Shown piece after piece: positions 1 to 12,183 of a DNA stretch of 64,000 nt. The notes under the pieces are model-generated. The model saw only the letters and a program-made list of their open reading frames with translations, searched no databases and was not told the DNA's origin. Numbering within the stretch: position 1 is the first letter of the stretch; every line of letters starts with the position of its first letter. A program made the position numbers and the translations under genes. This DNA is from Rhodoplanes sp. Z2-YC6860 (GTDB taxonomy: Bacteria > Pseudomonadota > Alphaproteobacteria > Rhizobiales > Xanthobacteraceae): positions 3,060,029-3,124,028 of the forward strand of contig NZ_CP007440.1 in the NCBI RefSeq assembly GCF_001579845.1, written 5' to 3'.

Positions 1-420
1 GTCCGAGCCATACGCGTTGAGCGCTTCGGCGGCACCCATAGTCAGCACCGGGCCGATGCCAAAGGCCATCGAGGCTGAATTCCACATCTCGATGCAGGCG
101 GCGTTCAGCGCGTTCGGCAGGCCTTGTCCGTTCCACTGTTCCGGCAGCGACACCGCGTTCCAGCCGGCCTTGAACCAGCTTTGATAGGCCTCTTTCCAGC
201 CCGGCGGCATGGTGACCTTGCCGTCCTTGAACGGCGTGCCGAACTTGTCGCCCACGGTGTTGAGCGGCGCGATGATTTCGGTCGCGAACTTTCCCGCCTC
301 GTCCAGCACCGCGTCGACGTCGTCCGCACCGAGCGTGCTGCCTTGCGCGAGGGCGGGCGCGAGCCCCGCGCCGTGTTTGAGCGTGAAGGCGATGTCGGCG
401 ACCGGGGCGCGGTATGTCAT
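1..420 (-). CDS. Acyl-CoA dehydrogenase, N-terminal part (cut by window edge)
   Basis: The first 140 residues are visible, starting at an ATG at position 420 (MTYRAPVADI). They contain the helical N-terminal stretch typical of the larger acyl-CoA dehydrogenases: a GADDVDAVLDEAGKF helix, then a segment with LPEQWNGQGLP and a further helix with EMWNSASMAFGIGP. The FAD- and substrate-binding domains and the catalytic base lie beyond the left edge. Family knowledge says such enzymes do the first alpha,beta-dehydrogenation of acyl-CoA esters, passing electrons to ETF. It is followed on the same strand, upstream, by a separate Bug-protein gene, so it may be the downstream member of that transcription unit. 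The substrate cannot be inferred. Confidence 0.8.
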   Translation of the reverse strand, partial: MTYRAPVADIAFTLKHGAGLAPALAQGSTLGADDVDAVLDEAGKFATEIIAPLNTVGDKFGTPFKDGKVTMPPGWKEAYQSWFKAGWNAVSLPEQWNGQGLPNALNAACIEMWNSASMAFGIGPVLTMGAAEALNAYGSD

Positions 421-588
421 AGCGTGATCCTAGTCTTGGAGGCTGCGTCGTCAATCATGGTGGGCAGCGCTATGGTTGCCGTCCTGGATCTCAAGACGAG
501 GCCATCGCCGGCCGAATTCGGCGCCTGTATGCCTGCGGACATGAAATGGCAGCGCGTCGTGAAGGATGGCTGCATCAAATCGGAATAG

Positions 589-1560
589 TCATTTCGACGG
601 CGGCAGCGTCGCCAGCAACGCCTTCCACTTGTCGGATTCGGTGTGGAGGAGTTCGCCGAACTTGGTTTCGTTCTCGTAGGCCGGCTCGACCGAGAGCAGC
701 GCCACCTTGGCTTGCACGTCGGGTCGTGCCCAGGCGGCGCCGACCGCCCGCGAAATCTCCTTGATCTTGTCGGGCGGCGTGGCGGCCGGCGCGAGGAGGC
801 CGATGAAGCTCGCCGAACCGCCGAAGCCCGGCACGCCGGCTTCCGTGATGCTCGGAATGTCTGGCGCCATCTTGGAACGGGTTGCGCTCGTGACGCCGAG
901 GCCCACGAGATTGCCGGCCTTGATGTGCTCATGAGCGGACGTGAGATCAACCGACGCCATCGGGATCTGGCCGCCGAGCACGTCAGTCACCGCGGGCGCG
1001 CTGCCTCGATAAGGCACGTGGACGAAATTCCCGCCGGTCGCCTTCTTCAGGAGTTCGACCGCGAGATGCTGGCTCGAATTCACGCCGGTGGTGCCGTAGC
1101 TGACGCCCTCGGGGGCGGTTTTGGCGCGTTCGATCACGGCCTTCAGCGTCTTCAGTTCGCCTTTTGAACTCGACACCAACACAATCGGGATCTCGATCAG
1201 CTTGGCGACTGGTGCAAGCTCCTTCAGCGTATCGAATGCGTTCGAGGTGGGCAGATGCGGATTGATTACCAGGGCGCCGACGGCCGCGATGGCGAGCGTG
1301 TCGCCGTCCGGCGCCGCCTTCGACGCCGTGATCAGCCCTATGGTGCCGCCGGCGCCAGGCTGGTTGATCACCACCACCTGGCGGTTGAGGCTTGCGCCCA
1401 GTTCAGTCGCTACGATGCGGGCAATGCCGTCGGCCGAGCCGCCGGGTGCAAACGGCACGTAGATCTGCATGACCTTCGAGGACGCCGGTTGGGCCGCGGC
1501 GGAGCCTGTTCCCAGTGGCAGCGCCAGTGCTGCGAGCAACGCCAAAGGCCTCAGACGCAT
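589..1560 (-). CDS. Bug-family tripartite tricarboxylate transporter substrate-binding protein
   Basis: A 323-residue periplasmic solute receptor. A signal peptide (MRLRPLALLAALALPLG, ending near AAAQP) is followed by the Bug signature: VPFAPGGSADGIAR, then NQPGAGGTIG, then APDGDTL, and HVPYRGSAPAVTDVLGG near residue 185. Bug proteins bind carboxylates or amides with two bridging waters and normally deliver them to TctA/TctB membrane subunits. No TctA or TctB gene lies in this window, so this is an orphan receptor, one of five here. The acyl-CoA dehydrogenase gene starts 168 bp downstream on the same strand, which may hint at a carboxylic-acid ligand. Confidence 0.93.
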   Translation of the reverse strand: MRLRPLALLAALALPLGTGSAAAQPASSKVMQIYVPFAPGGSADGIARIVATELGASLNRQVVVINQPGAGGTIGLITASKAAPDGDTLAIAAVGALVINPHLPTSNAFDTLKELAPVAKLIEIPIVLVSSSKGELKTLKAVIERAKTAPEGVSYGTTGVNSSQHLAVELLKKATGGNFVHVPYRGSAPAVTDVLGGQIPMASVDLTSAHEHIKAGNLVGLGVTSATRSKMAPDIPSITEAGVPGFGGSASFIGLLAPAATPPDKIKEISRAVGAAWARPDVQAKVALLSVEPAYENETKFGELLHTESDKWKALLATLPPSK

Positions 1561-1716
1561 CCGTCACCCCCGCGATTTTTCCGATAGGAGCGTAGCCGCG
1601 GGGCAGATTTCTATAAAGAGCATCCACCGCCTCCCACAGCTTGCATTGATTGGAAGCAGGTGCGCCGCTATACGGTGCGGGCAAAGATATCGGCCAATGA
1701 CGCAACGCCGCGGCAT

Positions 1717-1791
1717 TGGGGCGTAGCCAAGTGGTAAGGCAGCGGATTTTGATTCCGCCATCCCCTGGTTCGAATCCAGGCGCCCCAGCCA
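1717..1791 (+). tRNA. tRNA-Gln (anticodon TTG)
   Basis: A full cloverleaf can be drawn. Acceptor arms are TGGGGCG (1717-1723) and CGCCCCA (1781-1787). The D-arm has GCC/GGC around AAGTGGTAA. The anticodon stem GCGGA/TCCGC encloses loop TTTTGAT with anticodon TTG at 1749-1751. The T-arm is CCTGG-TTCGAAT-CCAGG, and G plus an encoded CCA follow. The 3' half from 1743 onward is the left attachment site of the adjacent element, and integration has kept the tRNA gene intact. Confidence 0.97.
1743..1791 (+). repeat. attL: 49-bp direct repeat, 3' half of tRNA-Gln
   Basis: This stretch runs from the anticodon stem to the CCA end of the tRNA. It is identical over 49 bp to 11590-11638. The identity stops at once on both sides (g versus a before it, a versus t after it), which marks the crossover segment of site-specific integration. 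Confidence 0.93.
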
Positions 1792-1887
1792 ATTTCCCGC
1801 GATTTTTCAGCCATTTTCAGCATCGATAGATCGGAACATTGGGAACGGAGAGCGAATATTCGCCGCCACAAAAACCGGCACAGTCGA

Positions 1888-3051
1888 TCATGCCGTTCTA
1901 TTTGTGTTCGTTCGAGAATTCGCCTTTTGGTCTTTTGCGGCGGCGGGCCGCTCCGACTCATGACCGGCACGATTGTCGGCACGCGCGAGACGCTGTTCGA
2001 CTTCGAGGAAGGCGTAAGCCTTTTCCGTCTGCTTGATGCTCTGATGGCCGAGCTGCGCCTGCACCATCTCCATCGACCATCCGTGATCCTGGAGGAGTCG
2101 GCAACCGTGCGTGCGGCGCAGATCGTGCCAGCGCACATCTTTGATGCCGGCGCGCGTGGCGGCCGCCTTGAAGCCTCGATCCAGGTGACGGAAGCGGGCG
2201 CCGTCGCGATGCCAGAACACGAGCTTGGAGCGGAAGTGGCGCGGCAGGGCGCTCAGGGCCTCGACTGCGGAATCGAGCAGCACCACATCACGCGATCTCT
2301 TGCCCTTGGCGCGCTCGCCCGGAATCCGGATCAGGCGTCCAGGCAGGTCGACATAGTCCCAGGTCAGGTCGAACTGCTCGCGAAGGCGAAGGCCCGATCC
2401 GATGGCCACGACAATGGCGGCCTCGAGCATGGCGTCGTTGCGCGGGCCTTTGTGCTTCTTCTTTGCGCGACGCCGGATCGTCTCATCCGTCTCGGTGCGC
2501 CTGGGCGAGGCTGCGGCGACCAGCTTGGTTTCTTCGGGCTTCTTGAGATAGCGGGTGCGCGCCTCGTTCTCGCGAAGTCCGCGCTTCTTGGCGCGCTTCA
2601 GGAACGCCGAGACCGGGTTGCTGTCGACGATCTCGCGCTCGATTGCGAAACCATACATCGAAGACAGGCACGCCAGATCCCTGCGGATCGTCGGCGCGGC
2701 GGCGCCATCGGCGCGGCGCGACGTCTCGAAAGCGATGAGTTCTGCCGAGCCGATGGAGTCGAGCATCAGGTGCCCCAGCTCGCGGTCGAGGTGGATGAGC
2801 GAAACGCCATAGCGCCGGGCCGACTGATGCCGGATGTTCGGAAGGTGCTCGTTCGTGAAGCGGTCGGCGATCTCATTGAGTGTGACCCTTGGTTTCTCGC
2901 CCCATGCAGCGGCATCTAGCCGGTCGATCCATTGCGTAAGACGTTTGCGAGCGACGCTTTGAGATCGCGTTTCGAGTGGTTCCCGGTATTCCTTGTTGCC
3001 TCTTTGAATGCGGCCCCACCACGTCTTGCCGCGGCGATAGATACTGGCCAT
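1888..3051 (-). CDS. Tyrosine recombinase (integrase) of the tRNA-Gln element
   Basis: A 387-residue phage-type integrase that should catalyse recombination between the 49-bp att repeats. The N-terminus (MASIYRRGKTWWGRI) is the usual arm-binding start, followed by a SAM-like core-binding domain (about 55-150) and a catalytic domain (about 165-350). The full catalytic set is visible: Arg222 in SGLRLRE, His309 and Arg312 in WHDLRRT, His336 in LGHQS and Tyr346 in KAYAFL. A basic insert lies at about 185-205. Its 3' end lies 96 bp from the tRNA, and its start overlaps the excisionase-like gene by 136 bp. The gene appears intact. Confidence 0.96.
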   Translation of the reverse strand: MASIYRRGKTWWGRIQRGNKEYREPLETRSQSVARKRLTQWIDRLDAAAWGEKPRVTLNEIADRFTNEHLPNIRHQSARRYGVSLIHLDRELGHLMLDSIGSAELIAFETSRRADGAAAPTIRRDLACLSSMYGFAIEREIVDSNPVSAFLKRAKKRGLRENEARTRYLKKPEETKLVAAASPRRTETDETIRRRAKKKHKGPRNDAMLEAAIVVAIGSGLRLREQFDLTWDYVDLPGRLIRIPGERAKGKRSRDVVLLDSAVEALSALPRHFRSKLVFWHRDGARFRHLDRGFKAAATRAGIKDVRWHDLRRTHGCRLLQDHGWSMEMVQAQLGHQSIKQTEKAYAFLEVEQRLARADNRAGHESERPAAAKDQKANSRTNTNRTA

Positions 3052-3242
3052 CGGGCTTTCTCCCCCTGCTCACGCGAGGCCCACCACAAACGAAACTCAC
3101 GCAGGTCAAACACCCAGCAGCCGCCCGGGCCTGAAGGCTGGCGTGCGCCGGGTATCTTGCCTGCCGCTGCCATCTTGATCCAGTGGCGGCTGGTGAAGCC
3201 GAACTCGTCGGCGATCTCGGAGGCTTTGACGGGAGGGCTCAT
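2916..3242 (-). CDS. Helix-turn-helix, excisionase-like protein
   Basis: A 108-residue protein whose first 55 residues look like a winged HTH_17/AlpA-type DNA-binding domain: ASEIADEFGFTSRHWIKMA, then IPGARQP and a WVFDLREFRLWW strand-helix. This arrangement is typical of recombination directionality factors and prophage regulators. It starts with an ATGA overlap on the upstream winged-helix gene and overlaps the integrase start. Position next to the integrase supports an excisionase role, but this is inference. The C-terminal half, which overlaps the integrase reading frame, is basic and featureless. Confidence 0.75.
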   Translation of the reverse strand: MSPPVKASEIADEFGFTSRHWIKMAAAGKIPGARQPSGPGGCWVFDLREFRLWWASREQGEKARWPVSIAAARRGGAAFKEATRNTGNHSKRDLKASLANVLRNGSTG

Positions 3243-3526
3243 TGTCCATCCACCTCCTCGGTCATGCGATCAGCAAGCCGGACATCACCGCGCCACTGCG
3301 CCCGCGTCTCTTCGGCCGGCGGCTTCAGCCGGTAGCGATATTCAAACCTGCGGGATGAATGGACGACTTCGGCGCGGTCGAGCACGCCAGCGAAAAACAG
3401 GATGCCCAGCCGCTGGCTGGTCCGGGTCGGATGCCAGTCGAGTGTTTGGCCGAGCTCCTTGGCGGTAGCCCCGTTGGGGTGAAGGGCCAGACCATCCAAG
3501 ATCGCTTGCTTCGTGGCGTCGAGCAT
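3239..3526 (-). CDS. Small winged-helix DNA-binding protein of the element
   Basis: A 95-residue protein starting at MLDATKQAILDGLALHPNG. The ATG at 3526 is chosen because it overlaps the upstream stop (TGATG) and is preceded by GGGAGG. Residues about 5-70 fit a winged helix-turn-helix: ATKQAILDGL, then ATAKELGQTLDWHPTRTSQRLG as the recognition region and a RFEYRYRLK wing. It could regulate the element. No family assignment beyond the fold is possible. Confidence 0.7.
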   Translation of the reverse strand: MLDATKQAILDGLALHPNGATAKELGQTLDWHPTRTSQRLGILFFAGVLDRAEVVHSSRRFEYRYRLKPPAEETRAQWRGDVRLADRMTEEVDGQ

Positions 3527-3909
3527 CAGCGAGCCCTCCCGACACGCTTGATGCCGCCACTGACACGCCAAGCGGTGATGGAGCGGTCGTTGCGGATGCC
3601 GCGGGCGCCATCGGCGACGCGGTTGTTCTTCGCGATCACCGGCAGATCGATGGTGTCGGTCTTTTCGCGCCAGCAGTTGCGGGCGAGGACGGCGCAGTTC
3701 TCAAGGCTGTTATCGCCGCCAAGGGCGTCCTGAAATACGTGCTCATAGTTGATGTGGCCGACACGGAGGATGACGCCGCAGCCTTGCGGCCGGCCGAGCT
3801 CTGGAATCCGATGACATTCGCAAATGCCGTTCGAGCGAGCGAAGGCTTCGCGCTTCGTCTCTTTGGTGAACTCGGATCGGCGGGAGCGGATCATCTGATT
3901 TTCCGCCAT
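3526..3909 (-). CDS. HNH endonuclease-like protein
   Basis: A 127-residue protein of the kind common in rhizobial prophages. The N-terminus is basic (IRSRRSEFTKETKREAF). A cysteine pair (Cys30, Cys32) precedes the core, in which NYEHVFQDALGGDNSLENC gives the His57 and Asn residues of a beta-beta-alpha-metal fold. The usual terminal CH..KT knuckle reads CWREKT here, so the last His is replaced by Trp, which could weaken or change metal binding. In phages such proteins nick DNA near packaging sites or act with modification enzymes. Upstream of a winged-helix gene with a TGATG overlap. Confidence 0.82.
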   Translation of the reverse strand: MAENQMIRSRRSEFTKETKREAFARSNGICECHRIPELGRPQGCGVILRVGHINYEHVFQDALGGDNSLENCAVLARNCWREKTDTIDLPVIAKNNRVADGARGIRNDRSITAWRVSGGIKRVGRAR

Positions 3910-4079
3910 TGGCCGTTGGCGTCTTGCTCAACGCCGTGGAGCGCGCGCATGTGGTCTCGTGCATACTTCTCCGCGTCGCGCCACGCTTTGCGCTTGTGCC
4001 AGTTGTCGAGCCATTGGAAGCCGCAAAGGAATGCGAGTAGGCATCCAATGAAAATCGCGAGAACGGCTAGTTCTTTCAT
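3891..4079 (-). CDS. Small single-pass membrane protein
   Basis: A 62-residue protein (start MKELAVLAIFIGCLLAFLCG) with one hydrophobic segment at residues about 3-20 followed by a charged, probably cytoplasmic tail rich in Lys, Arg and Asp. The ATG at 4079 forms an ATGA overlap with the preceding gene, and its 3' end overlaps the HNH gene by 19 bp. The family is not recognised. In a phage context such proteins can be holin-like or superinfection-related, but nothing here proves that. Confidence 0.6.
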   Translation of the reverse strand: MKELAVLAIFIGCLLAFLCGFQWLDNWHKRKAWRDAEKYARDHMRALHGVEQDANGQWRKIR

Positions 4080-4354
4080 CGATCCAACCCGCTTCGTTGA
4101 CCGCAATAAACGCAATGCCTGTCATTCGGGCCGCCGAAGACATGATCTCCAACCGGATTGCGTTGATCAGGGCAGGGATCGGGGATGTCACAGAACAGCG
4201 GTGCGTCGTCGTTGCGTGGGTCGTAGTTGAGAATGCAGTCGTCGATGTCGGTTTCGACCGGGGCGGGTTCGATGATCTCGAATGCCCATACCGGCATTCC
4301 TGCCAGATGAGATTGAATGGCTTGGGTGAGAGCGAGGGATTGGTTACGGGACAT
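4076..4354 (-). CDS. Small acidic hypothetical protein with a CxxC pair
   Basis: A 92-residue protein starting MSRNQSLALTQAIQSH. The N-terminal 30 residues are helical and mildly hydrophobic (HLAGMPVWAFEII). The middle is acidic (VETDIDDCILNYDPRNDD). The end has several cysteines finishing with HCVYCGQ, suggestive of a zinc knuckle. It shares an ATGA junction with the following membrane-protein gene. The start is the first Met after the upstream stop; no strong ribosome-binding site is seen. Family unknown. Confidence 0.6.
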   Translation of the reverse strand: MSRNQSLALTQAIQSHLAGMPVWAFEIIEPAPVETDIDDCILNYDPRNDDAPLFCDIPDPCPDQRNPVGDHVFGGPNDRHCVYCGQRSGLDR

Positions 4355-4413
4355 TTTGGAGAACCACGTTGCTCTTGCTGCGGAGTCGAGCTGATGAAGT
4401 CTTTCCTCAACGG

Positions 4414-4968
4414 CTAGGCGGCCTTTCGCTCCTTCATGTCGGCCTTGATGATGGCGATCTGCTCGGGCGCGACGGGAGCGGTCAGTTCGCGGGCCGGAAG
4501 GAGTGCTGCGGCCTCGGGCCACACTTCGGCAACGTCCTCTACGTATGAGACAGAGCGCACGAGCGAGCTGAACGCGTCGAGGCGCTTCTGGCGCTCCTTC
4601 TTGAAAGCGTCGCTTGCCGCCGACCACGCGACCACGGCAGCAAATGCGCGGGCGTCGGCCAGATAAATCTGCCGATACTCCGTGTTGTACGGCGTGAGCG
4701 GCCGGTCGTCCTTTTCGAACGTGAACTGATCGACCGTTCCGTCCGGCGATTGCAGCTTGAACTCGGTGTAGCCGGATACGGAGCGGTAGCGTTCCAGCAC
4801 GCGCATGTCGCGCGGCGGGTACTTCTTCTCGATGATGGGCTTCACGAGCGCGACTGCCTTCAGGTATGCGCTCGCGAGCGCGGCTTTCTCTGCCGCCGGC
4901 TGCACGACCGTATTGGCGTGCTGCAGCAGCTTGTCGCGCATCCAGGCTCGCAGTGGTCGCTTCGTCAT
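4414..4968 (-). CDS. Phage-type hypothetical protein (184 aa)
   Basis: A 184-residue protein beginning MTKRPLRAWMRDKLLQHAN. The ATG at 4968 has a strong upstream GGGAGGAGC at good spacing. The sequence is helical at first, has a KPIIEKKYPPRDMRVLERY stretch (about 42-60), then a segment describing an RQIYLADARAFAAVVAWSAA helix and a long charged helix near the end. It vaguely recalls phage proteins of the Nmad5 type, but I cannot confirm this. The reading frame stays open upstream to an ATG at 5283 (289 residues in total), so either an N-terminal extension exists or a separate upstream gene has fused in frame. Confidence 0.65.
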   Translation of the reverse strand: MTKRPLRAWMRDKLLQHANTVVQPAAEKAALASAYLKAVALVKPIIEKKYPPRDMRVLERYRSVSGYTEFKLQSPDGTVDQFTFEKDDRPLTPYNTEYRQIYLADARAFAAVVAWSAASDAFKKERQKRLDAFSSLVRSVSYVEDVAEVWPEAAALLPARELTAPVAPEQIAIIKADMKERKAA

Positions 4969-5383
4969 GTTCAGCTCCTCCCTGTTGTGTTGACCGACGC
5001 CACCACCAGCCCGAGCGATTGAAATTCCCACCGCGACAAGGTCCGGGAAATCCTTGCCTTCGTGCCAATTGAGCGTGGCCTTGGTGACCGACTGCTTGAT
5101 CGTGGCCGCTAGGGTATTGTCAAACAACAGATCGGATAGTTGTCCGATTTGCTGGGCGGTAAACTGCCAAGTTGAAACCTCGGTCTGTTTGACTACCCAC
5201 CATCCGCCGGGCAGATCAATCGCAATTAGACGCGTGTCGTTGATCGAGTGGCTATCGTCGCCGCCGATTGCAAGGTGAATCACACTCTTTCCGGAAACCG
5301 AGAATTCAAAACAACAGACCTCGTAGGGAGGGTGAGGCGCAGGCCCCGACCGGAAGCATGCGCTCCGAGGTCAACAATTACCA

Positions 5384-5722
5384 ATGCGCCTTGGTCGAGG
5401 CGTTCGGGAGCCGCAGCGCCAAGACGACCTGCACGGCGGTCGCCCCGACTACCACATCTATGCCGGCGAGCAGATGGTGGGCCGCATCTACAAGACGATG
5501 ATGGCCGGCAACACCGAAGCCTGGTTCTGGGGCGTCAATGGCCTGACTGCCGATCTCTCGATCGGGCCAATGTACGGGCACACCGAAACCCTGGAAGAGG
5601 CTCGGGCAAAACTGCGAGAGACGTTCGACCGCTGGCTCGCGTGGGCGCGGTCGGTTTCAAAAGACGATTTGAAATATCGCGATATCACAACGGAGCTTTG
5701 GCGGATGGGAGAGAGGCCTTAG
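5384..5722 (+). CDS. Small conserved hypothetical protein, opposite strand to the element
   Basis: A 112-residue protein and the only plus-strand gene inside the element. Residues from about 22 onward look natural: GRPDYHIYAGEQMVGRIYK, then EAWFWGVNG and a LEEARAKLRETFDRWLAWA helix. This pattern occurs in short hypothetical proteins of Bradyrhizobium-type genomes. The first 20 residues are Arg/Gln-rich and less protein-like, so the true start is uncertain and the original N-terminus may be frameshifted. No function is known. It may be a late acquisition or a cargo gene. Confidence 0.6.
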   Translation: MRLGRGVREPQRQDDLHGGRPDYHIYAGEQMVGRIYKTMMAGNTEAWFWGVNGLTADLSIGPMYGHTETLEEARAKLRETFDRWLAWARSVSKDDLKYRDITTELWRMGERP

Positions 5723-5875
5723 CTTTCGTTACGTTGGTTCGCCGATCTCTTGAGTGCGAGCAACCGCCCCTTTGATGGCCTAGCTGGGCATGTGTTTCGG
5801 CAGGGCGGTGCTCTTCTGCGAGGTTGATGTTGAGTGCCCACAACCGATCCCTCGCAAATCATCTATGTGCGCCGG

Positions 5876-6172
5876 TCAGAACGGAAGTTCGTCATCGATT
5901 GATGTCGGCTTCCGCCAGCGTCGCCAGAACGCGAGCTTGCCTACGTAGTATTCGATCTTCGCACGGCGCTCCATGCGTTGGCAGTGCTTGTCGTATTCGA
6001 CAGTGAGAAACCTATGGTGCGCCACTTCCGCATCGCTCGGCCACCAGCGGTAATCGCAACGGGCGCAATGCCACACACCTTCGCTGGTTTCCTCGTAGTC
6101 CTCATGGAAGCATTCTTCCGCCTCTGGCTCGTACTCGCGCGGGTCGGTGCATTTCCATTGGTCGTAGGTCAT
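5876..6172 (-). CDS. Small zinc-ribbon-like hypothetical protein
   Basis: A 98-residue protein starting MTYDQWKCTDPREYEP. The ATG at 6172 forms an ATGA overlap with the upstream gene and follows GGGGAAGG. Residues about 20-45 hold CFHEDYEETSEGVWHC and ARCDYRWWP, a possible zinc ribbon with two Cys/His knuckles. The rest is a charged helix ending DDELPF, a motif resembling the beta-clamp or SSB-tail style acidic tips, though that likeness may be chance. Function unknown. Confidence 0.65.
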   Translation of the reverse strand: MTYDQWKCTDPREYEPEAEECFHEDYEETSEGVWHCARCDYRWWPSDAEVAHHRFLTVEYDKHCQRMERRAKIEYYVGKLAFWRRWRKPTSIDDELPF

Positions 6173-6420
6173 TTGCCTTCCCCGTTTTGTGGCGCAGATT
6201 GCCCATGTGCGGCCCGGCACTTCGGGCATTGCTCAAAATCCAACTCGCCGTGCTCGCACCGCGCTGTCATGCCGCGTACCCACGACTGGCGTTGAGCCTC
6301 GATCTCGGCCGGCGTCATCTGGTGGACCTGCGCAGCATCAAGCATCTCCTGCAGGGTTGGCTTGCGCCCCAGGGCCTTGGTGAGATTGGCGATGCGATCA
6401 GCCCAGGTTATGTCTGCCAC
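6169..6420 (-). CDS. Small hypothetical protein with Cys/His knuckle
   Basis: An 83-residue protein: a helical N-terminus (WADRIANLTKALGRKPTLQE), a middle segment MTPAEIEAQRQSW, and CEHGELDFEQCPKC, which has the spacing of a single zinc knuckle. It overlaps the next gene by ATGA. It is one of a set of short Cys-rich proteins encoded in series by this element. No family is recognised. Confidence 0.65.
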   Translation of the reverse strand: MADITWADRIANLTKALGRKPTLQEMLDAAQVHQMTPAEIEAQRQSWVRGMTARCEHGELDFEQCPKCRAAHGQSAPQNGEGK

Positions 6421-6435
6421 TTGTTGCGTCCTCGC

Positions 6436-6678
6436 TTATGACCGCACGGGAGCCATGCCGGGCACCGTGCCGCCGTTCATCATGGCGTGATAGGCGCGGC
6501 AGGCGTCTCTCAGGGTTTGGAATCGCTCACGGTCCAGATCGTCAAGGTCGCCCTCCCAGGGCAACGCGATCTCGATACCATGTTCCTGGAAGATCATTGC
6601 GGCATCCAATAGAGCGTGCTTTTCGCGGGTCGAAAACTCTGCCATCCCACTCTCCGTTTTCGGGCGGTCTGTGGTCAT
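6436..6678 (-). CDS. Small hypothetical phage-type protein
   Basis: An 80-residue acidic, helical protein (STREKHALLDAAMIFQEHG, then WEGDLDDLDRERFQTLRDA). It starts at the ATG at 6678, which coincides with the stop of the upstream gene, so the two are translationally coupled. No motif gives a function. Confidence 0.65.
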   Translation of the reverse strand: MTTDRPKTESGMAEFSTREKHALLDAAMIFQEHGIEIALPWEGDLDDLDRERFQTLRDACRAYHAMMNGGTVPGMAPVRS

Positions 6679-6881
6679 CAGTAGTCGCCGTCTTGAAGGA
6701 CGAACGCCTTGGGCGCGTCCGCATTAATGCGGCGCAGAGTGAAAGGTTTGGTCTGGTCGAGACCGTGCGTCGCCAGTTCGGCGACAAGAAGATCGCGAGC
6801 CTGGTCCTCGGTCTCAGCCACGATCACGGACGCCACCCCGACCCAATGCCCATCGTGGTCGACGCAGGTATAGATATTCAT
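6678..6881 (-). CDS. Small conserved phage-type hypothetical protein
   Basis: A 67-residue alpha/beta protein: MNIYTCVDHDGHWVGVASV forms two strands, AETEDQARDLLVAELATHG a helix, then FTLRRIN another strand. This beta-beta-alpha-beta pattern is common among small prophage proteins of unknown function. It has an ATGA overlap with the 56-codon gene upstream. Confidence 0.7.
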   Translation of the reverse strand: MNIYTCVDHDGHWVGVASVIVAETEDQARDLLVAELATHGLDQTKPFTLRRINADAPKAFVLQDGDY

Positions 6882-7048
6882 GATTTCTCCTTGCTGGCGC
6901 TAGCACACTCACCGTCACGAAGCGCTGGCTTCGCAAATTGAAAGCCAAGGCATCCGCAGCCCTCGCACCGATCGGGCTCTATGAAATACTCTTGGCCACA
7001 TTGGCAGCAAAAAACATTCTGGCCGCGCGGTGCTGATAGGTAAGTCAT
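6878..7048 (-). CDS. 56-residue Cys-rich mini-protein
   Basis: A short open frame beginning MTYLSAPRGQNVFCCQCGQE and ending ASKEKS. Four cysteines in two knuckles (CCQCG and CEGCGC, about 13 residues apart) fit a rubredoxin-like zinc ribbon. Its stop overlaps the ATG of the next gene by ATGA, and it fills an otherwise empty gap between two coupled genes, which supports it as real. Function unknown. Confidence 0.65.
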   Translation of the reverse strand: MTYLSAPRGQNVFCCQCGQEYFIEPDRCEGCGCLGFQFAKPALRDGECASASKEKS

Positions 7049-7060
7049 CGTCACGGGCCT

Positions 7061-7435
7061 CTAGCGCTCGAACGTCTTGACCATTGGGTTGATCTTGCTG
7101 CGGACGTGCTCGATCGCCTTGGTTGGGTCAGCCGTGCGCCAGTCCGGCCACTGACGACCTTCGTTCCTGGTCTGCTTTCCGATGATCATATTGCAGGCGA
7201 TCTCAGCGACGGACTGAGGGTCGTTCCGCTCGCCGTTGCAGAAGGCGAGGCGGCGCGTCAGTCCATCCAGGGCGAGGATTACAACGTCAACCCACTCGGC
7301 GGCATCGCCGTGAGCGTCATGAACCTCGATCAACTCTTTCTTGATGTGATTGATTACGCCATCGGTCCGCTCGCCGGGACCAAAGGTGGCGTGGCTGAAG
7401 GCCATTTGCCGGATTAGGTGCTGTTTCAAATCCAT
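7061..7435 (-). CDS. MazG-like dATP/dGTP diphosphohydrolase (DUF550 type)
   Basis: A 124-residue protein with the DUF550 N-terminal pattern: LIRQMAFSHATFGPGERTDG, then VINHIKKELIEVHDA and the EWVDVVILALDGL helix, which carry the metal-binding Glu and Asp residues of all-alpha NTP pyrophosphatases. The second half (RNEGRQWPDWRTADPTKAI) is the usual C-terminal extension. Family members hydrolyse dATP and dGTP and adjust phage nucleotide pools; some serve phages that make 2-aminoadenine DNA. No PurZ-type synthetase is present, so a general role in nucleotide clean-up is more likely here. Confidence 0.8.
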   Translation of the reverse strand: MDLKQHLIRQMAFSHATFGPGERTDGVINHIKKELIEVHDAHGDAAEWVDVVILALDGLTRRLAFCNGERNDPQSVAEIACNMIIGKQTRNEGRQWPDWRTADPTKAIEHVRSKINPMVKTFER

Positions 7436-7476
7436 CGATGTCTCCTATGTTTTGTGAAGCAGATGTGATGTGTGCG

Positions 7477-7869
7477 TCACTCTGCGCTGACGCAGGCGAT
7501 CTTTTCGGCGCCGATGCCCGGCCGCATGACATTCTCATCGCCGCTGATCTGCGCGGCCCAATGCGCCAAGACGGCGGCGGTTGAGACTGTATGGTGGTGG
7601 GCCTTATTCAGGTCACCGGCCTTGTGCGCGGCCAATGCCTTGCCGGCGAGATAACCGACCAGCCAGAACCAATCCTCGGGCGCCTTGCCAGTGTCGTGCT
7701 CGGCGCCCCATCGGTCGCGCTGGTGCGCGGCCTCGACCAAGATTTCATCAAGCCACGCGCCAACGTATGGCCGGGCGATTAGCCCGCTAAGGTGCTCGAT
7801 CTCGGCGCGCATGTCGGCCACTTCGCCCTCGGAAACTCTGGCACGCTTGAAATCTTCGGCTCTTGCCAT
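7477..7869 (-). CDS. Phage-type hypothetical protein
   Basis: A 130-residue protein. The stretch VEAAHQRDRWGAEHDTGKAP followed by EDWFWLVGYLAGKALAAH and HHHTVSTAAVLAHWAAQ is a pattern I associate with short, widespread prophage proteins of unknown function. His and Asp residues on amphipathic helices could bind metal in a MazG-like way, but this is only suggestive. The next gene upstream ends only 1 bp before it starts. Confidence 0.7.
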   Translation of the reverse strand: MARAEDFKRARVSEGEVADMRAEIEHLSGLIARPYVGAWLDEILVEAAHQRDRWGAEHDTGKAPEDWFWLVGYLAGKALAAHKAGDLNKAHHHTVSTAAVLAHWAAQISGDENVMRPGIGAEKIACVSAE

Positions 7870-7870
7870 G

Positions 7871-8134
7871 TCATTCGCTCCGTGACTGCTGATGACCTGA
7901 CGGCAGCGCGGGCAAAAGCTCCAAATCTTCGACGCGCCCGATTACTCGCCTGTATCGCCAAATCTCGCCGTCGATGACGTGAGCGAACGAGTCGGACGAG
8001 AAGGCATCTTCGATATTCACATGGCCGTCGCTGTCGATATGGCTGGTGTAGGCCAGCGCGCCAGAACCGTCATCGTTCTTCAGCCAGATGAACTCCTGAT
8101 CTTTGAATCGAACCCGGATATTTTCATCGGCCAT
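7871..8134 (-). CDS. Small hypothetical protein
   Basis: An 87-residue protein starting MADENIRVRFKDQEFIWLK; the ATG at 8134 is preceded by GGAGAGCAGCG. The sequence is mainly beta (IRVRFKDQEFIWLKNDDGSG, then YTSHIDSDGHVNIEDA). It overlaps the upstream gene by 11 bp and abuts the following gene. No family is recognised. Confidence 0.62.
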   Translation of the reverse strand: MADENIRVRFKDQEFIWLKNDDGSGALAYTSHIDSDGHVNIEDAFSSDSFAHVIDGEIWRYRRVIGRVEDLELLPALPSGHQQSRSE

Positions 8135-8369
8135 CGCTGCTCTCCGTCGCTCTACTGCTGTTTCCGAACAGGAAGCCGAGCGCGGCGTGCTGTTCATCCG
8201 ACAAAAACCAATCGCGCTGCCGTCCGCGCCGATAGCGCGACTGCGAGCAGATCAGGCCTTCGTTTTCCATTGCCGTGAGCTGCTTCACGTTTCCGCCGAG
8301 TTGCATCGTGCGGAATATGCGTCGCGATATCTGAGCGTGCATTGTCAGGAGGATTTCGGTGCGAGTCAT
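8124..8369 (-). CDS. Small putative winged-helix protein
   Basis: An 81-residue protein. IFRTMQLGGNVKQLTAMENEG with a following RYRRGRQRDWFLSDEQ looks like the recognition helix and wing of a small winged-helix protein. The basic patch (RYRRGRQR) suits nucleic-acid binding. It overlaps the next gene by 11 bp. The assignment rests on pattern only. Confidence 0.55.
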   Translation of the reverse strand: MTRTEILLTMHAQISRRIFRTMQLGGNVKQLTAMENEGLICSQSRYRRGRQRDWFLSDEQHAALGFLFGNSSRATESSDGR

Positions 8370-8375
8370 CGCAGC

Positions 8376-8579
8376 CTACCTATATGCGGCCCTTCGCCGC
8401 CGTTTCGGGATGTCGTAGCGCTGCTTGCCGGTGACGTTCATCCAATCGAGCACGCAGCCGGTCCACAGATCCCAGACCTCTTGCTTCGGATTGGCTCCGG
8501 CCGTCATCAGATGGCGCGAGGCCTGCGCGACCTTCTCCGCGCGCCGGTAGCTCTCAAGTCGTCGTTTCGAAAGCTTCAT
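8376..8579 (-). CDS. Small basic helical protein
   Basis: A 67-residue protein starting MKLSKRRLESYRRAEKVAQ at the ATG at 8579. It is very basic at both ends (finishing DIPKRRRRAAYR) with a helical middle containing EVWDLWTGCVLDWMN. Upstream in-frame Met codons are possible but lack a ribosome-binding site. Probably a nucleic-acid-associated phage protein; function unknown. Confidence 0.58.
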   Translation of the reverse strand: MKLSKRRLESYRRAEKVAQASRHLMTAGANPKQEVWDLWTGCVLDWMNVTGKQRYDIPKRRRRAAYR

Positions 8580-8602
8580 GCCTGTCTCGACACGTATCTG
8601 AT

Positions 8603-8809
8603 CTAGTCGCAGTAGTCCGCGAAGCTTCGATACACGATGGTGCCGCCAACGCCGGTCCATCGACGCGGCGGGTCGCCTTCGCCAAGCCATTTGGTGCCGT
8701 CGCTATAGTCAGCGGCGTCATACTCGTAGGCGCAGCTCCCTTGCTCGCTGCGGTGCTTGCACTGTTCTTTGCTCGGGCACTTCAGGGTGCAGAACCATTC
8801 GACAGGCAT
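8603..8809 (-). CDS. Small Cys-rich hypothetical protein
   Basis: A 68-residue protein starting MPVEWFCTLKCPSKEQCKH; the ATG at 8809 follows GGAGACGCAGCG at good spacing. Five cysteines (CTLKC, EQC, GSC and a near-terminal YCD) suggest metal binding. It is another of the short Cys-rich proteins of the element. No family is recognised. Confidence 0.62.
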   Translation of the reverse strand: MPVEWFCTLKCPSKEQCKHRSEQGSCAYEYDAADYSDGTKWLGEGDPPRRWTGVGGTIVYRSFADYCD

Positions 8810-8837
8810 CGCTGCGTCTCCGTGTCTAGCCATCACG

Positions 8838-9017
8838 TCACTTTAGCGTGCGCGTGACGCCGAATTTGTAGGAGCGATTGATCGTGTACACGCTGACCTC
8901 GGCGCCATCGTAGTCTTCCGGGATTTCGTTGACATTGCGTGCCACAGCGTAGACGGGCTCGCCGTCAGCTTCGTCGCATTGATAGACCAGAATTTCCTTC
9001 GGCAGTTTCTTAGCCAT
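8838..9017 (-). CDS. Small hypothetical protein
   Basis: A 59-residue protein starting MAKKLPKEILVYQCDEADG, with ATG 9017 preceded by GGAGACAGG. A predicted three-strand beta fold: ILVYQCD, VYAVARNV and VSVYTINRSYKFG. Such short sheets are common in prophage early regions. Function unknown. Confidence 0.65.
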   Translation of the reverse strand: MAKKLPKEILVYQCDEADGEPVYAVARNVNEIPEDYDGAEVSVYTINRSYKFGVTRTLK

Positions 9018-9056
9018 TTCCTGTCTCCTTCCTTGCAATAGGCCGCAAAGCGGCGG

Positions 9057-9716
9057 TCACCGACGCGCGGCGAGCTGCTTGGCCAATTTCTGGCACTCGG
9101 CGGTGACGTAATCGATGTCCCGATAGACCTCGCCGTAGTCGCCGCTCATCGAGCGAAGGCCCAGGCGGCTCATGCTGGGGCAGATATCGCCAGCATGGGC
9201 GCAATCGAACCCAAACCACCAAGTGTTGTCGGGCTCACCCGGCCCCGGCGTATGGCAGATGAAGCGAGCGTGTCCGCGCTCGGCCCAGGCTTCGTAATTG
9301 TCGAAGCAGCCGGTCCACTCCTTGAGGGATTGGGCTGCATCCCCGGAGGGATATTTTTTCGCATCGCGCTCAAGCTCTGGCTTTCGAGAACGCCACTTCT
9401 CCCATCTGTCGCGGCTCAGGTCTGAGCAGCCAGAAGCGAACGTGATGCCGCCATGGGCGTCCAGGCTGCTTTCCGGCCGATGATCGCAGTAGTCGCCGCC
9501 GCAAGACTGCGGGCACGAGCCATAGTCCAAACCGTGGAAGGGATGGCCGGCCGGGACACCGACGTAGCCACATAGAGCCCCAACAGGCCCGCGCACGATC
9601 AGGCATGCCAGTCCGGTTTCGGCGTCCTGCCATTGGATTTTGTCGGGCTCATCGTTCCACGGACCGCGCTTCCAATCGGTCTTGTCGATCACGTTGCGGT
9701 ATTCAATTCGTTCCAT
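9057..9716 (-). CDS. Conserved phage hypothetical protein (219 aa)
   Basis: A 219-residue protein starting MERIEYRNVIDKTDWKRGPW. The early stretch GPWNDEPDKIQWQDAETGL, LIVRGPVGALCGYVGV and then HGGITFASGCS is a pattern I have seen in many phage and prophage genomes of unknown function. It is rich in Trp, Cys and His. The ATG at 9716 is preferred to one 21 bp upstream because the encoded MERIEY start matches the family. No enzymatic role can be named. Confidence 0.75.
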   Translation of the reverse strand: MERIEYRNVIDKTDWKRGPWNDEPDKIQWQDAETGLACLIVRGPVGALCGYVGVPAGHPFHGLDYGSCPQSCGGDYCDHRPESSLDAHGGITFASGCSDLSRDRWEKWRSRKPELERDAKKYPSGDAAQSLKEWTGCFDNYEAWAERGHARFICHTPGPGEPDNTWWFGFDCAHAGDICPSMSRLGLRSMSGDYGEVYRDIDYVTAECQKLAKQLAARR

Positions 9717-9762
9717 TTTTCCCTCCGTTTGTTGCAAGCGTTTCGTCAGGGCGCATCACTGT

Positions 9763-9993
9763 TCACCAATCCATGCCGCCAAGCTGTTCTGGCTGCCTCG
9801 CGCCGGACTGTTTGTCGGCTTCTGTGCGGAGCCCATCAATGATCGCGCGGCGTTGATTGTGGTCTAGGTCGGAGAGCTGGTGGTACTCACTGCCGTAGAA
9901 ATAGCCGATAGACCACCCGGAGGACCGTTCAAGCTTGCTCGCCAAAGCGCGCATTGCCTCAGACGTTATTCTGCGCGGCGGTTCATTGCTCAT
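9763..9993 (-). CDS. Small hypothetical protein
   Basis: A 76-residue, mostly helical protein (ITSEAMRALASKLERSSGWS, then LDHNQRRAIIDGLRTEADK). It is preceded by AGAGGAG-like purines upstream of ATG 9993. It has no recognisable domain and is placed between two conserved phage-type genes on the same strand. Confidence 0.6.
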   Translation of the reverse strand: MSNEPPRRITSEAMRALASKLERSSGWSIGYFYGSEYHQLSDLDHNQRRAIIDGLRTEADKQSGARQPEQLGGMDW

Positions 9994-10017
9994 GCTCGCA
10001 GACCTCTCCTCTGGGGC

Positions 10018-10425
10018 TCAAAGCAGGCATTCGACCCAGCAAGCGCTATCGGCGCGCTCCTGGTCGGAGAATTCCTTGCGCCCGACGCGGCCGGCGTGCA
10101 GGTTTGCCAACAGAGCCCGCTCGGTGATCTTGTTGCTCCATTGATTGCAGCGCCGAAGAAATTCCTTCGCCAGCGGCAAGCTCATGAAGCGCAGCACGTC
10201 GAGTTCTACGTGGCGCCGGATCGACTGTTCGAATCGCGCACACTCAACGCAACGCCGTGTGCAATCCTCACAGCCAACTTCCGCGTCCTGGCAGAACCCA
10301 TCGATGCAGTCATGGACGTAACCTTCGTCGCCGCAATCCGGGCATGAGTCCTGGTCTGGGTTGAGGTCGAAGTGCGCCTCGTCGAAAAGCCTATCGAGCA
10401 GGGCGTTTTCTTTCGATATCTTCAT
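10018..10425 (-). CDS. Cys-rich phage-type protein with multiple zinc knuckles
   Basis: A 135-residue protein. Residues about 28-62 carry CPDCGDEGYVHDC, FCQDAEVGCEDC and RRCVECARFE: nine cysteines in CxxC-like pairs, enough for two zinc sites. The remainder is a basic helical region (ALPLAKEFLRRCNQW style) ending in another Cys pair. Function unknown; DNA or RNA binding is plausible. Confidence 0.68.
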   Translation of the reverse strand: MKISKENALLDRLFDEAHFDLNPDQDSCPDCGDEGYVHDCIDGFCQDAEVGCEDCTRRCVECARFEQSIRRHVELDVLRFMSLPLAKEFLRRCNQWSNKITERALLANLHAGRVGRKEFSDQERADSACWVECLL

Positions 10426-10454
10426 GACTTAATCCCTCAGACGGCCCATCACCG

Positions 10455-11171
10455 TCACTCTGCAGCTTCTTTGAATGGTTTTTCCCAAAGGCTTGCGAAT
10501 GTCGGCCGCTGGAGATCGTCTTCGATTTCTGCGCCACGGCGCTCGATATCGACGAACATGTCTGGACGGCGCGTGGCATCGTCGATGCGGCGGCAGGCGA
10601 TATCGAAATACTTGGGTTCGATCTCTATCCCGATGAATCGGCGCCCAATCTGCACAGCGGCGACTCCGGTCGTGCCGCTGCCCATGAATGGATCAAGGAT
10701 CAGCGATGCTGCACCGATTTCAGCAAGGGTGAACTTCATGACCGCGAGCGGCTTCTGCGTAGGGTGGCCTACGCGCTCGGCGTTCGTGGCTCCAATGGAG
10801 CAGTTAATCTGGCGTGAGTTCTGGTTGAGGTTGGTCCAAGCAAACTCGACGTTGCCCATGCTGGGAGGCGCGTCGGGCTTGAACCAAGAAAGCCAACCGC
10901 GAGACGGCGGCAGGCTGTAATAGTTGCCACCCCAGACCACCTGCTTTTTGCCGCAGGCAAGAAGATCGGTCAGCCCATCAACCGTAATATCATCCCACGA
11001 CTCGGCAGTTTTCCCAGCTCGGCGCTGCCATTTGGTAGGCTGAGCTGCAAAGCCAATGCCATAGGGCGGGTCGGTCACCACGGCATCAACCGGCCCGAGT
11101 GTCGGGACGATCTCGCGGCAGTCTCCGAGGTAGATGGTCACGCCATCAGCTATGGTTTCGATTTTTGGCAT
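10455..11171 (-). CDS. Beta-class DNA methyltransferase (N6-adenine or N4-cytosine)
   Basis: A 238-residue enzyme starting MPKIETIADG, with ATG 11171 preceded by AGGAAACC. Motif IV is DPPYG (34-38) and motif I is DPFMGSGTT (160-168), with the target-recognition region between them; this order defines the beta class. HPTQKPLAVM (136-145) is the usual segment just before motif I. It transfers methyl from AdoMet to the exocyclic amine of A or C. No cognate restriction enzyme is adjacent, so it is probably an orphan phage methylase used for self-protection. The N-terminus overlaps the upstream small gene. Confidence 0.92.
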   Translation of the reverse strand: MPKIETIADGVTIYLGDCREIVPTLGPVDAVVTDPPYGIGFAAQPTKWQRRAGKTAESWDDITVDGLTDLLACGKKQVVWGGNYYSLPPSRGWLSWFKPDAPPSMGNVEFAWTNLNQNSRQINCSIGATNAERVGHPTQKPLAVMKFTLAEIGAASLILDPFMGSGTTGVAAVQIGRRFIGIEIEPKYFDIACRRIDDATRRPDMFVDIERRGAEIEDDLQRPTFASLWEKPFKEAAE

Positions 11172-11568
11172 GGTTTCCTGCCTGTTGTTCGGACACGCCG
11201 CGTGTGCTGGCCGCTGCGCTTGAAAGGGGTGCCGGTCGATGATCTGGGCAGGATCTTCGATCCGGCCGCGCCGATGCCCTGGGGGATTGGGGAACAAGAG
11301 GCGAGGGCGCGTTTTCTATTTCGGTGATGTCAGGGGCGTTGAAGGGCTTCGGCTCTTGCCGCCAGTCGCCTTCAGCGAAGATCACGATGTCGTCGGGGCC
11401 GATCTCGCGTTGAGCCCGCTTGTCCCACCAGCGATGGATGATTCGCGGACCGCCCCAGATCCGATAGGCGTTCCAGAAGCGATCGTCGCGGAAGCCGACG
11501 TAATGGACGGCCGGCACAATTGTCGGCACAGCGTTGGCGGATTGATGGTTATTCGGAAGCTCAATCAA
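11146..11568 (-). CDS. Hypothetical protein at the right end of the element
   Basis: A 140-residue protein, the most upstream gene of the element, starting 22 bp inside attR. The first 90 residues look genuine: VPAVHYVGFRDDRFWNAYR, IWGGPRIIHRWWDKRAQRE, then DDIVIFAEGDWRQEP. The last 45 residues are Ser/Pro/Arg-rich and overlap the methyltransferase start, so the real end may be shortened or altered. No function is recognised. Confidence 0.65.
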   Translation of the reverse strand: MIELPNNHQSANAVPTIVPAVHYVGFRDDRFWNAYRIWGGPRIIHRWWDKRAQREIGPDDIVIFAEGDWRQEPKPFNAPDITEIENAPSPLVPQSPRASARPDRRSCPDHRPAPLSSAAASTRGVSEQQAGNHAKNRNHS

Positions 11569-11589
11569 CGCGATGCGCGAAGTGTCCGA

Positions 11590-11638
11590 CGGATTTTGAT
11601 TCCGCCATCCCCTGGTTCGAATCCAGGCGCCCCAGCCA
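11590..11638 (+). repeat. attR: 49-bp copy of the tRNA-Gln 3' half
   Basis: Identical to 1743-1791, beginning at the second base pair of the anticodon stem and ending with CCA. The 5' half of a tRNA is missing here (the sequence before it is unrelated), so this is an attachment site and not a second tRNA gene. Confidence 0.93.
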
Positions 11639-11655
11639 TCACCAACGCATTGAAA

Positions 11656-11913
11656 CTAAAACAGTTCTGCCGCTGTGTCGTTTTGTTCTTCTGGGATTTT
11701 CTGCAAATCAGAATCCGCCATTTTCTGCAAATTTGTTGCTTGCCTGTTCTCCAGCAAATGCGCGTAGCGTTTGCGCGTCGCAGGGAGCGCGCGTTCGAGC
11801 GACTTCTTCGCGTAACCTTTGTACGCCTGCACTTTCTTGTGACCGGAGAGAGCGCGATCTTGACCGTCGGTGAGCTCGGCAACCTCGATCTCGGTCAGCT
11901 GTTGATTACGACC
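11656..11913 (-). pseudogene. 3' remnant of another tyrosine recombinase
   Basis: An open stretch of about 85 codons reads AELTDGQDRALSGHKKVQAY followed by KGYAKKSLERALPATRKRYA. This matches the end of many rhizobial integrases: the LSGHK box with the last catalytic His, then the tyrosine in the AYKGYAKKS segment, then a basic helix and a long tail. The upstream catalytic boxes (Arg and HxxR) are gone. It starts 18 bp beyond attR and points the same way as the active integrase relative to the tRNA, so it is best read as a relic of an earlier element. The assignment is from pattern memory. Confidence 0.55.
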
Positions 11914-12183
11914 AGCGTACCGAGCCTGCGAGCATCTTGCCGGTGCTGGCTGAACTCGGGTTGGCCGGCAAATCACGCGACGAACAGGGTACGGCAGAGG
12001 ATATTTAAGGTTCGCAGCGCAGCTGTCCAACGCCGCTCCAGGAACACAATGGCTACGCGCAACCTCCTTTCGGAGAAAGTTGCTGCGCGTCAGAAAGAGC
12101 TTGGGGAAGAGGTAGTGCGGATCAATGCCCGGACTCCGTCAACAGGAATCCCGCCAAAGACCAAGCCGAAGTATCGGCGGCCA

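Follow-up and report, generated by a model that had tools for sequence, protein, structure and literature searches.

A candidate prophage-derived mini-island in tRNA-Gln with a temperate-phage integration module and no recognised virion genes

Genomic islands integrated in tRNA genes are recognised, in the Islander-type scheme of PMC4383910, by an intact tDNA, a correctly oriented 3′ fragment of it at the opposite end and an integrase gene inside. PICMI satellites, as described in PMC10803314, are small, carry an integrase and an HTH protein with an ATGA overlap, a primase but no capsid genes, and sit by fis. Incomplete prophages of Hyphomicrobiales are reported in PMC11080155 to be enriched in integrase, with head genes preferentially lost in both of its groups and terminase genes in the non-animal-associated group.

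In the 64-kb window (the whole stretch of DNA analysed) we find a 9.9-kb element with all three of the Islander-type features. Its ends are the two copies, 100% identical, of a 49-bp direct repeat (1743-1791 and 11590-11638), the only direct repeat longer than 23 nt found within window positions 1-14000; the repeat corresponds to the 3′ end of tRNA-Gln(TTG), starting from the anticodon stem, and the tRNA gene remains intact, bearing out the exact ends given by the first-pass annotation. The 19-bp core, which forms the first 19 bp of the repeat, has two exact copies in the 8.19-Mb genome, both at the element ends. The flanking gene used to seek an empty site belongs to a large paralogous family. 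Between the repeats there are 25 plausible ORFs (93% coding), and all genes except g08 (5384-5722) run in the same direction (24/25, minus strand). The “tight ATGA coupling” claimed earlier does exist but was overstated, as 4-bp overlaps join 4 of the 23 consecutive minus-strand gene pairs, one of the 23 spanning plus-strand g08. Terminator-like hairpins number 13 versus 10.1 in shuffles, and sigma-70-like promoters 0 versus 3.1, so that expression of the genes is only putative. The features of the locus are the following.

1717-1791, plus strand: tRNA-Gln(TTG), intact, the integration target (ARAGORN)
1743-1791, plus: attL, 49-bp repeat copy (repeat search)
1864-1883, plus: P′ arm, paired arm-like sites at +121/+133 from the core start, the first a variant, CGCCACA (site search)
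1888-3051, minus: tyrosine integrase, 387 aa (PF00589, 75 bits, above cut-off; phrog_1; residues)
2916-3242, minus: excisionase-like HTH protein, overlapping the integrase gene (weak HTH_17 and phrog_66; kin before the integrase gene in phage contigs G320-G322)
3239-3526, minus: g03, winged-helix-like small protein (weak HTH_20, E=0.003)
3526-3909, minus: g04, HNH endonuclease-like (phrog_333, E=2.4e-7; Pfam 21.5 versus cut-off 27.5)
3891-4079, minus: g05, small protein with a hydrophobic N-terminal stretch by eye (translation)
4076-4354, minus: g06, no family (Pfam, PHROGs)
4414-5283, minus: g07, Nmad5-like, start GTG 5283 or ATG 4968 (PF18757, 26.2 bits, cut-off 27; phrog_1965, E=1.8e-7)
5384-5722, plus: g08, sole plus-strand gene (phrog_12188, E=8e-4)
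5876-7054, minus: g09-g13, five small ORFs of no assigned function (ORF calls, Pfam)
7061-7435, minus: g14, dATP/dGTP pyrophosphohydrolase (PF04447, 63.1 bits, above cut-off)
7477-7869, minus: g15, domain of phage proteins (phrog_25267, E=3e-27; 48-63% in 4 IMG/VR loci)
7871-9017, minus: g16-g20, five small ORFs of no assigned function (Pfam, PHROGs)
9057-9716, minus: g21, phage-family protein (phrog_2164, E=3.5e-30)
9763-10425, minus: g22 and g23, the latter Cys-rich by eye (Pfam, PHROGs)
10455-11171, minus: g24, DNA N4/N6 methyltransferase (PF01555, 74.5 bits, above cut-off; phrog_67, E=2.4e-41)
11146-11529, minus: g25, phage small-protein domain plus 52-aa tail (41-49% to 4 phage records, residues 1-75)
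11512-11531, plus: P arm, paired arm-like sites at -78/-66 from the core start (site search)
11590-11638, plus: attR, 49-bp repeat copy (repeat search)
11659-11895, minus: C-terminal piece of a second, different integrase, outside the element (homology chain)

The integrase carries R222, K249, K251, H309, R312, H336 and Y346, presumably its catalytic residues, all seven of which are invariant in an alignment of four sequences (two rows being near-duplicates); by sequence, the catalytic set is complete, as had been claimed. The excisionase-like ORF yields only weak family matches (HTH_17, 21.6 bits versus a cut-off of 27; phrog_66, E=0.001) and no relative in the phages collection, and its naming is best supported by the conservation of the int-xis pair in relatives. 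Indeed, the integrase is 49-54% and the excisionase-like protein 54-57% identical to the int-xis pairs of three phage contigs (G320-G322), in which these pairs are surrounded by phage genes, and among the closest relatives of the module that we found (43-54%) are phage contigs as well as a prophage of 39.8 kb (G629). The integrase itself has matches in 175 records of the phages collection, of which the 12 listed are about 30% identical, and in 41 of 61 near genomes, where the best match outside the window element is 31%. Judging from these similarities, the integrase gene and the overlapping excisionase-like gene are a temperate-phage integration module, as a prophage-derived element should possess.

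The attachment site points in the same direction. The P-arm pair represents the only [CG]GCACA sites spaced 12 bp apart in 64 kb, with 0 such pairs in 20 Markov shuffles, and the P′ sites lie at +120/+132 in G320 and +121/+133 in G629, so that the arm-site distances (-78/-66, +121/+133) are equal within 1 bp in the window and in both phages. Because of this match the attachment site looks functional, and the recombination module probably works: the integrase would bind the paired arm-like sites predicted on both sides and act on the tRNA-Gln core in the anticodon stem, and together with the excisionase-like protein could excise a 9.85-kb circle and reintegrate it, the tRNA staying intact. The earlier statement that the element could still be mobile is thereby supported as a possibility.

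We scanned all 25 ORFs with Pfam and PHROGs (E up to 0.1), and none gave a convincing match to a family of capsid, portal, terminase, tail, lysis or replication proteins, confirming the first-pass view that virion genes are missing; nor did the 25 ORFs contain the virion, packaging and lysis genes of a complete prophage. Four matches are weak or misleading: phrog_57, terminase small subunit, for the excisionase-like ORF (E=0.003), Phage_TAC_9 for the HNH ORF (E=0.07), a model of a virion protein's N-terminus for g10 (E=0.011) and, for the methyltransferase, a phrog that bears the label DNA helicase (E=3.4e-6) and aligns in the methylase motif region. Among the gene names proposed earlier, the methyltransferase holds (its motifs are DPPY and DPFMGSG), HNH is weaker, being under the Pfam cut-off, as is the weakly matching excisionase-like protein, and “MazG/DUF550-like” reflected a real family match, but to PF04447. 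Roughly half of the ORFs lack a meaningful family match. In a coding-frame test (g07 taken as 4414-4968) the own frame was the best of six for 19 of 25 ORFs; the failures (xis, g13, g14, g15, g16 and g23) include g14 despite its clear homologues, so we regard the test as weak and kept all ORFs. PADLOC, run on 10 of the 25 ORFs to look for known anti-phage defence genes, matched only the methyltransferase; its matches span 64 families, and the 25 listed are all methyltransferase types except for one mads_2.

Relatives of the cargo genes are scattered. The g14 protein is 51-80% identical to 7 IMG/VR loci and below 60% to 100 phage records; the open frames of g15 relatives, inspected for a truncation of g15, measure 230, 256, 378 and 151 aa; and g10 has single relatives in three family genomes. 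The 52-aa tail of g25 has no match in its phage relatives, three annotated ones being 81, 83 and 127 aa. We found no relative of g21 in 295 other family genomes or the phages collection, of g07 in 396 other order genomes, phages or viral contigs, and of g23 in viral contigs. A comparison of cargo DNA with 390 other family genomes (best two candidates per genome) recovered no full set, only single-gene patches in 23 genomes; the lack of a conserved core is one of the outcomes that the first-pass annotation had set against its own reading. A donor prophage carrying this cargo did not turn up among phage contigs, relatives and family genomes, and the examined phage loci have single genes, but no gene order, in common with the cargo.

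On balance, we favour a prophage-derived, non-autonomous integrative mini-island, for which we count the PHROG matches of the cargo and the single-gene phage relatives, and we prefer it to a defined satellite family because no conserved cargo core was found. Its cargo would comprise phage-type accessory genes (pyrophosphohydrolase, methyltransferase, HNH) and small ORFs without known function. As the ORFs include no recognised gene for virions, packaging or replication, its spread between cells would need outside help, from generalised transduction, a helper phage or a larger replicon. Against this reading count the missing donor prophage, the zero count of sigma-70-like promoters and the large share of ORFs that match no family, and also the orientation of the integrase gene: it lies on the opposite side of the attachment site from that in 6 of 7 relatives, so more than one deletion would be needed. 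Simple deletion of a G320/G629-type prophage was rejected: relative to the core, the arm-like sites are oriented as in those phages, yet the integrase gene is found on the opposite side, an arrangement that one deletion cannot explain. The turned arrangement also occurs in G412, a 44% relative convergent with an adjoining tRNA-Phe (placed by adjacency only, as its far end was not located), and according to PMC2951348 tRNA and integrase genes often form such convergent pairs.

A true phage satellite, which a helper phage induces, which leaves the chromosome by means of its own integrase and excisionase and which the helper's capsids then carry, would resemble the element in its size, exact ends, integrase and HTH protein with an ATGA overlap and lack of virion genes, like the minimalist satellites of PMC10803314, whose model takes HTH_17 as AlpA, the family weakly matched by our excisionase-like ORF. 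We nevertheless consider it unlikely, given that no primase or other replication gene is recognised in the 25 ORFs, that the cargo was not recovered as a repeated set in 391 family genomes, own included, and that no resident helper was seen in the two structural families searched in the own genome (no large terminase, PF03237; one partial portal gene, PF04860).

A prophage remnant that can no longer move, retained by chance or on account of a cargo gene, is slightly less likely still. The losses recorded in PMC11080155 are of this kind, assuming a Hyphomicrobiales host as the first-pass annotation did, the tail of g25 is unmatched, and the integrase piece beyond the right repeat speaks of decay at the locus. 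That piece, from its similarities, would mark an older occupant of the site. Its name comes from a homology chain alone, ending in a phage gene (41% identity over 94%) that one of two near-equal records calls integrase and the other hypothetical; the piece has nothing in Pfam or PHROGs, its full-length relative nothing in Pfam and no PDB match, and hhalign of that relative against the window integrase gives 52% probability. Against a remnant, the arm-like sites on both sides and the integrase catalytic residues are kept, no recognisable broken virion gene lies inside, and plain decay would not reach the observed integrase orientation by one deletion from most known relatives.

Still less probable is a minimal element that depends on a helper and has a switch coupled to excision: in the circle, transcription from the integrase end would run through the joined site and on into g25 and the first operon, a read-through impossible in the integrated state; it could arise because the integrase gene is turned round relative to the attachment site and 24 of 25 genes are co-directional. 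A terminator-like hairpin at 1895-1876, directly after the integrase gene, speaks against such a switch. A genomic or mobilizable island with a merely borrowed phage integrase, for which G013 speaks, where tRNA-Gln is followed after 14.4 kb by a second core copy and the genes between are metabolic and transport genes by eye, is highly improbable, as several cargo genes match phage families and no relaxase or transfer family appears among the Pfam matches.

Comparison of the mini-island we favour with known systems shows that G629, which sits in tRNA-Gln(CTG), is alike in the int-xis pair (46-47%), the tRNA-Gln site and the paired arm-like sites at the same distances, but has its own capsid, portal, terminase and tail genes, the integrase gene on the other side and no further common gene. 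Phage contig G320 (IMGVR_UViG_3300038393_001298, 47.6 kb) has the identical 19-bp core beside the integrase gene, the integrase (54%), xis (57%) and arm-like sites, but carries its own tail, head-tail adaptor, endolysin and primase genes, differs in integrase side and again has no further common gene. A virion-bearing relative at the same locus, which the first-pass annotation had set against its own reading, is thus found in part: the module relative with a full virion set occupies CTG rather than TTG, and the TTG core occurs in G320 with its tail and other phage genes. PICMI membership was rejected, as no primase was found in the 25 ORFs and the site is tRNA-Gln, not fis; the integrase is present, while AlpA (PF05930 or PF12728 in PMC10803314) is approached by PF12728 under its cut-off. 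As in the Hyphomicrobiales incomplete prophages of PMC11080155, the integrase is kept and head and terminase genes are missing; the ends of the window element are exact and its arm-like sites retained. By the description of Islander-type islands with an anticodon-centred subsite in PMC4383910, nothing marks it as a separate class, and it is mostly ordinary, tRNA-Gln being repeatedly used for insertion in the genomes examined and stripped prophages being common. Its use lies in an attachment site whose paired arm-like sites have distances conserved across diverged phages; as the integrase gene appears to have changed sides with the site unchanged, the comparison suggests that the two can be rearranged apart, and, if the element excises, it would offer a compact subject for what a helper-dependent element needs.

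The element occupies the interval assigned to it by the first-pass annotation, and both copies of its 49-bp repeat were confirmed, each an exact match of the other. The left copy lies within an intact tRNA-Gln gene, as its 3' part, and the first 19 bp of the repeat (the core) occur only twice in the 8.19-Mb single-contig genome, at the two element ends. The features of this site are as follows.

1717-1791, intact tRNA-Gln(TTG)
1743-1791, left 49-bp repeat copy (attL)
1888-3051, minus strand, integrase gene
2916-3242, minus strand, excisionase-like gene
11590-11638, right 49-bp repeat copy (attR)
11659-11895, minus strand, open frame directly right of attR, outside the element

Comparison of the integrase with viral contigs yielded four loci, three at 49-54% identity and one at 30%; in the former three, an excisionase-like gene (54-57%) lies directly ahead of the integrase gene. 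The integration module is, judging from these comparisons, of phage type. One phage contig, IMGVR_UViG_3300038393_001298 (G320; 47,556 bp), has the exact 19-bp core 31 bp past its integrase gene, and a scan of 30 of its 44 ORFs of at least 90 aa gave, among 25 of 77 PHROG families, head-tail adaptor, tail, terminase small subunit, endolysin, primase/helicase and repressor; large terminase and capsid were absent among these 25, a PF03237 search also found none, and this contig may be incomplete. Two further phage contigs, G321 and G322, are 94-96% identical across long stretches, and their Pfam matches (28 of 46 and 2 of 43 ORFs scanned, respectively) include phage tail, baseplate, holin and DnaB, plus host-type signalling domains, among 25 of 39 families. 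Among genome contigs there were 16 integrase loci; three, from Methylobacterium, are 49% identical and have a 3' fragment of tRNA-Gln immediately beyond the integrase gene, and the remainder are lower or short. Three more relatives (G629, G412 and G560; 43-46% identity by tblastn) came from 397 genomes of the order, the element's own included, at E <=1e-50. In G629 a distance of 39.8 kb separates tRNA-Gln(CTG) from a second copy of its 3' end, with the integrase gene in between, and the families found in 29 of 39 ORFs of at least 110 aa comprise capsid, portal, large terminase, prohead protease, head completion, tail and baseplate.

CGGCACA-like sites flank the core as pairs with 12 bp spacing, which we take, by analogy with lambda-type integrases, to be putative integrase arm sites.

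Positions of arm-like sites, numbered from the core start
Window: -78/-66 and +121/+133
G320 (phage contig): -78/-66 and +120/+132
G629 (prophage): -78/-66 (-77/-65 with the anchor one base early relative to the anticodon) and +121/+133
L048 and L050 (compared loci): -78/-66
L049 (compared locus): -66, plus a weaker first site
G560 (genome): single site at -78

Farther out on the integrase side, an additional pair is present in G320, L048 and L049, and in G629 near -371/-359; the window lacks one. Under a strict pattern the window's left pair is unique in 64 kb (0 in 20 shuffles), and its right pair includes one variant site outside that pattern. The attachment site appears to be real and kept, the main evidence being the fixed distances across diverged elements.

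In six of the seven relatives with a placed site (G320, G629, G560 and the three Methylobacterium loci), the integrase gene is on the -78/-66 side and reads in the same direction as the core; the window has it on the opposite side of the site, facing the tRNA. No attachment site was found for G321 or G322. G412 (G412:C4:20001-40000, about 2430-3580) shares the window's arrangement, with the 44% integrase relative adjoining tRNA-Phe; this suggests that target tRNA and orientation have changed within this integrase group. Plain deletion is ruled out as the origin of the element, because deletion alone cannot turn the integrase gene round. The element may instead have arisen by inversion and loss, through an exchange of modules, or from a phage that already had its integrase gene turned; no such phage was found.

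The 25 ORFs, set by hand from an ORF list, cover 93% of 1792-11589; the minus strand carries 24 of them and the plus strand the remaining one. Integrase, dATP/dGTP pyrophosphohydrolase and N4/N6 DNA methyltransferase exceed Pfam curated cut-offs; HNH and Nmad5-like proteins fall under them, yet are backed by PHROG, while g15 and g21 have PHROG families alone. NCBIfam, in 10 ORFs scanned, gave general methyltransferase and tyrosine-recombinase matches alone, below its cut-offs. Across all 25 ORFs, Pfam and PHROGs gave some weak matches, yet nothing convincing for a family of capsid, portal, terminase, tail, lysis or replication proteins. Elsewhere in the same genome (3600000-3619000, at 10022-10633, minus strand, of that interval) one phage portal gene is incomplete, matching 129 of the 321 positions of the model, with no phage family in three neighbouring ORFs scanned.

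Cargo relatives turn up one gene at a time. The pyrophosphohydrolase matches seven viral-contig loci (51-80%) and 100 phage records, every one below 60%; g15 has relatives in four viral-contig loci, g21 partial relatives in two, and g25 relatives in four phage records. Among the 13 viral-contig loci from the pyrophosphohydrolase, g15 and g21 searches, only in L066 do several element genes occur together, namely g15, an integrase at 26% and a weak excisionase match. Matches to the cargo DNA (3240-11500) were present in 23 of the 390 other genomes of the family, with the two best candidates per genome scored: the methyltransferase gene in 16, g10 in three, the HNH gene only in three and g15 in one. 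Of six regions fetched from six of these genomes, five had one element gene each, and that from G316 had two, a 65% methyltransferase and a 33% HNH-like match, separated by about 0.7 kb in an arrangement unlike the window; in the G066 region there were, in addition, three matches with ORFs from the prophage in G629. With 1792-9791 as query, 80% coverage was reached by no phage record (57 matched) or plasmid (2 matched), and the 12 matches listed covered 1-3% of it.

The open frame right of attR is probably a fragment of a second integrase from a different family, left by a putative earlier occupant. It matches pieces beside tRNA-Gln in G007 (63%, 60 residues) and, over a shorter stretch, G014, a piece adjoining a partial 3' fragment of tRNA-Gln in G012 (71%, 52 residues), and a protein of 440 aa next to tRNA-Cys in G053 (63% over 46 residues). 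The last in turn shares 41% identity, over 94%, with an integrase-annotated gene of a Synechococcus phage. Seven of 61 genomes, its own included, had matches (E <=0.01). The G012 locus (G012:C39:7000-14000, at 276-3571) is laid out as the window, with tRNA-Gln, a segment of about 2.9 kb, the partial 3' fragment and the second-integrase piece. At another locus (G013:C8:98500-116500) the core is present twice at a distance of 14.4 kb, once within tRNA-Gln, and the genes in between are by eye metabolic, transport and transposase-like rather than phage genes. Farther right in the window, two ORFs (12184-15006, minus strand) point toward the element, so that read-through into its first operon is conceivable.

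On balance we lean towards a prophage-derived, non-autonomous mini-island, with a recombination module that looks able to work; its mobility, helper dependence and ancestry are what we infer. Among satellites, the PICMI model accepts HTH_17 for AlpA (PMC10803314), and the excisionase-like gene of the element has a weak match to HTH_17. PICMI as described there differs in having a primase and a fis site. The odds of the readings are changed neither by this comparison nor by the possible incompleteness of G320, because the element lacks both a primase and the fis site and the G629 prophage carries the virion argument.
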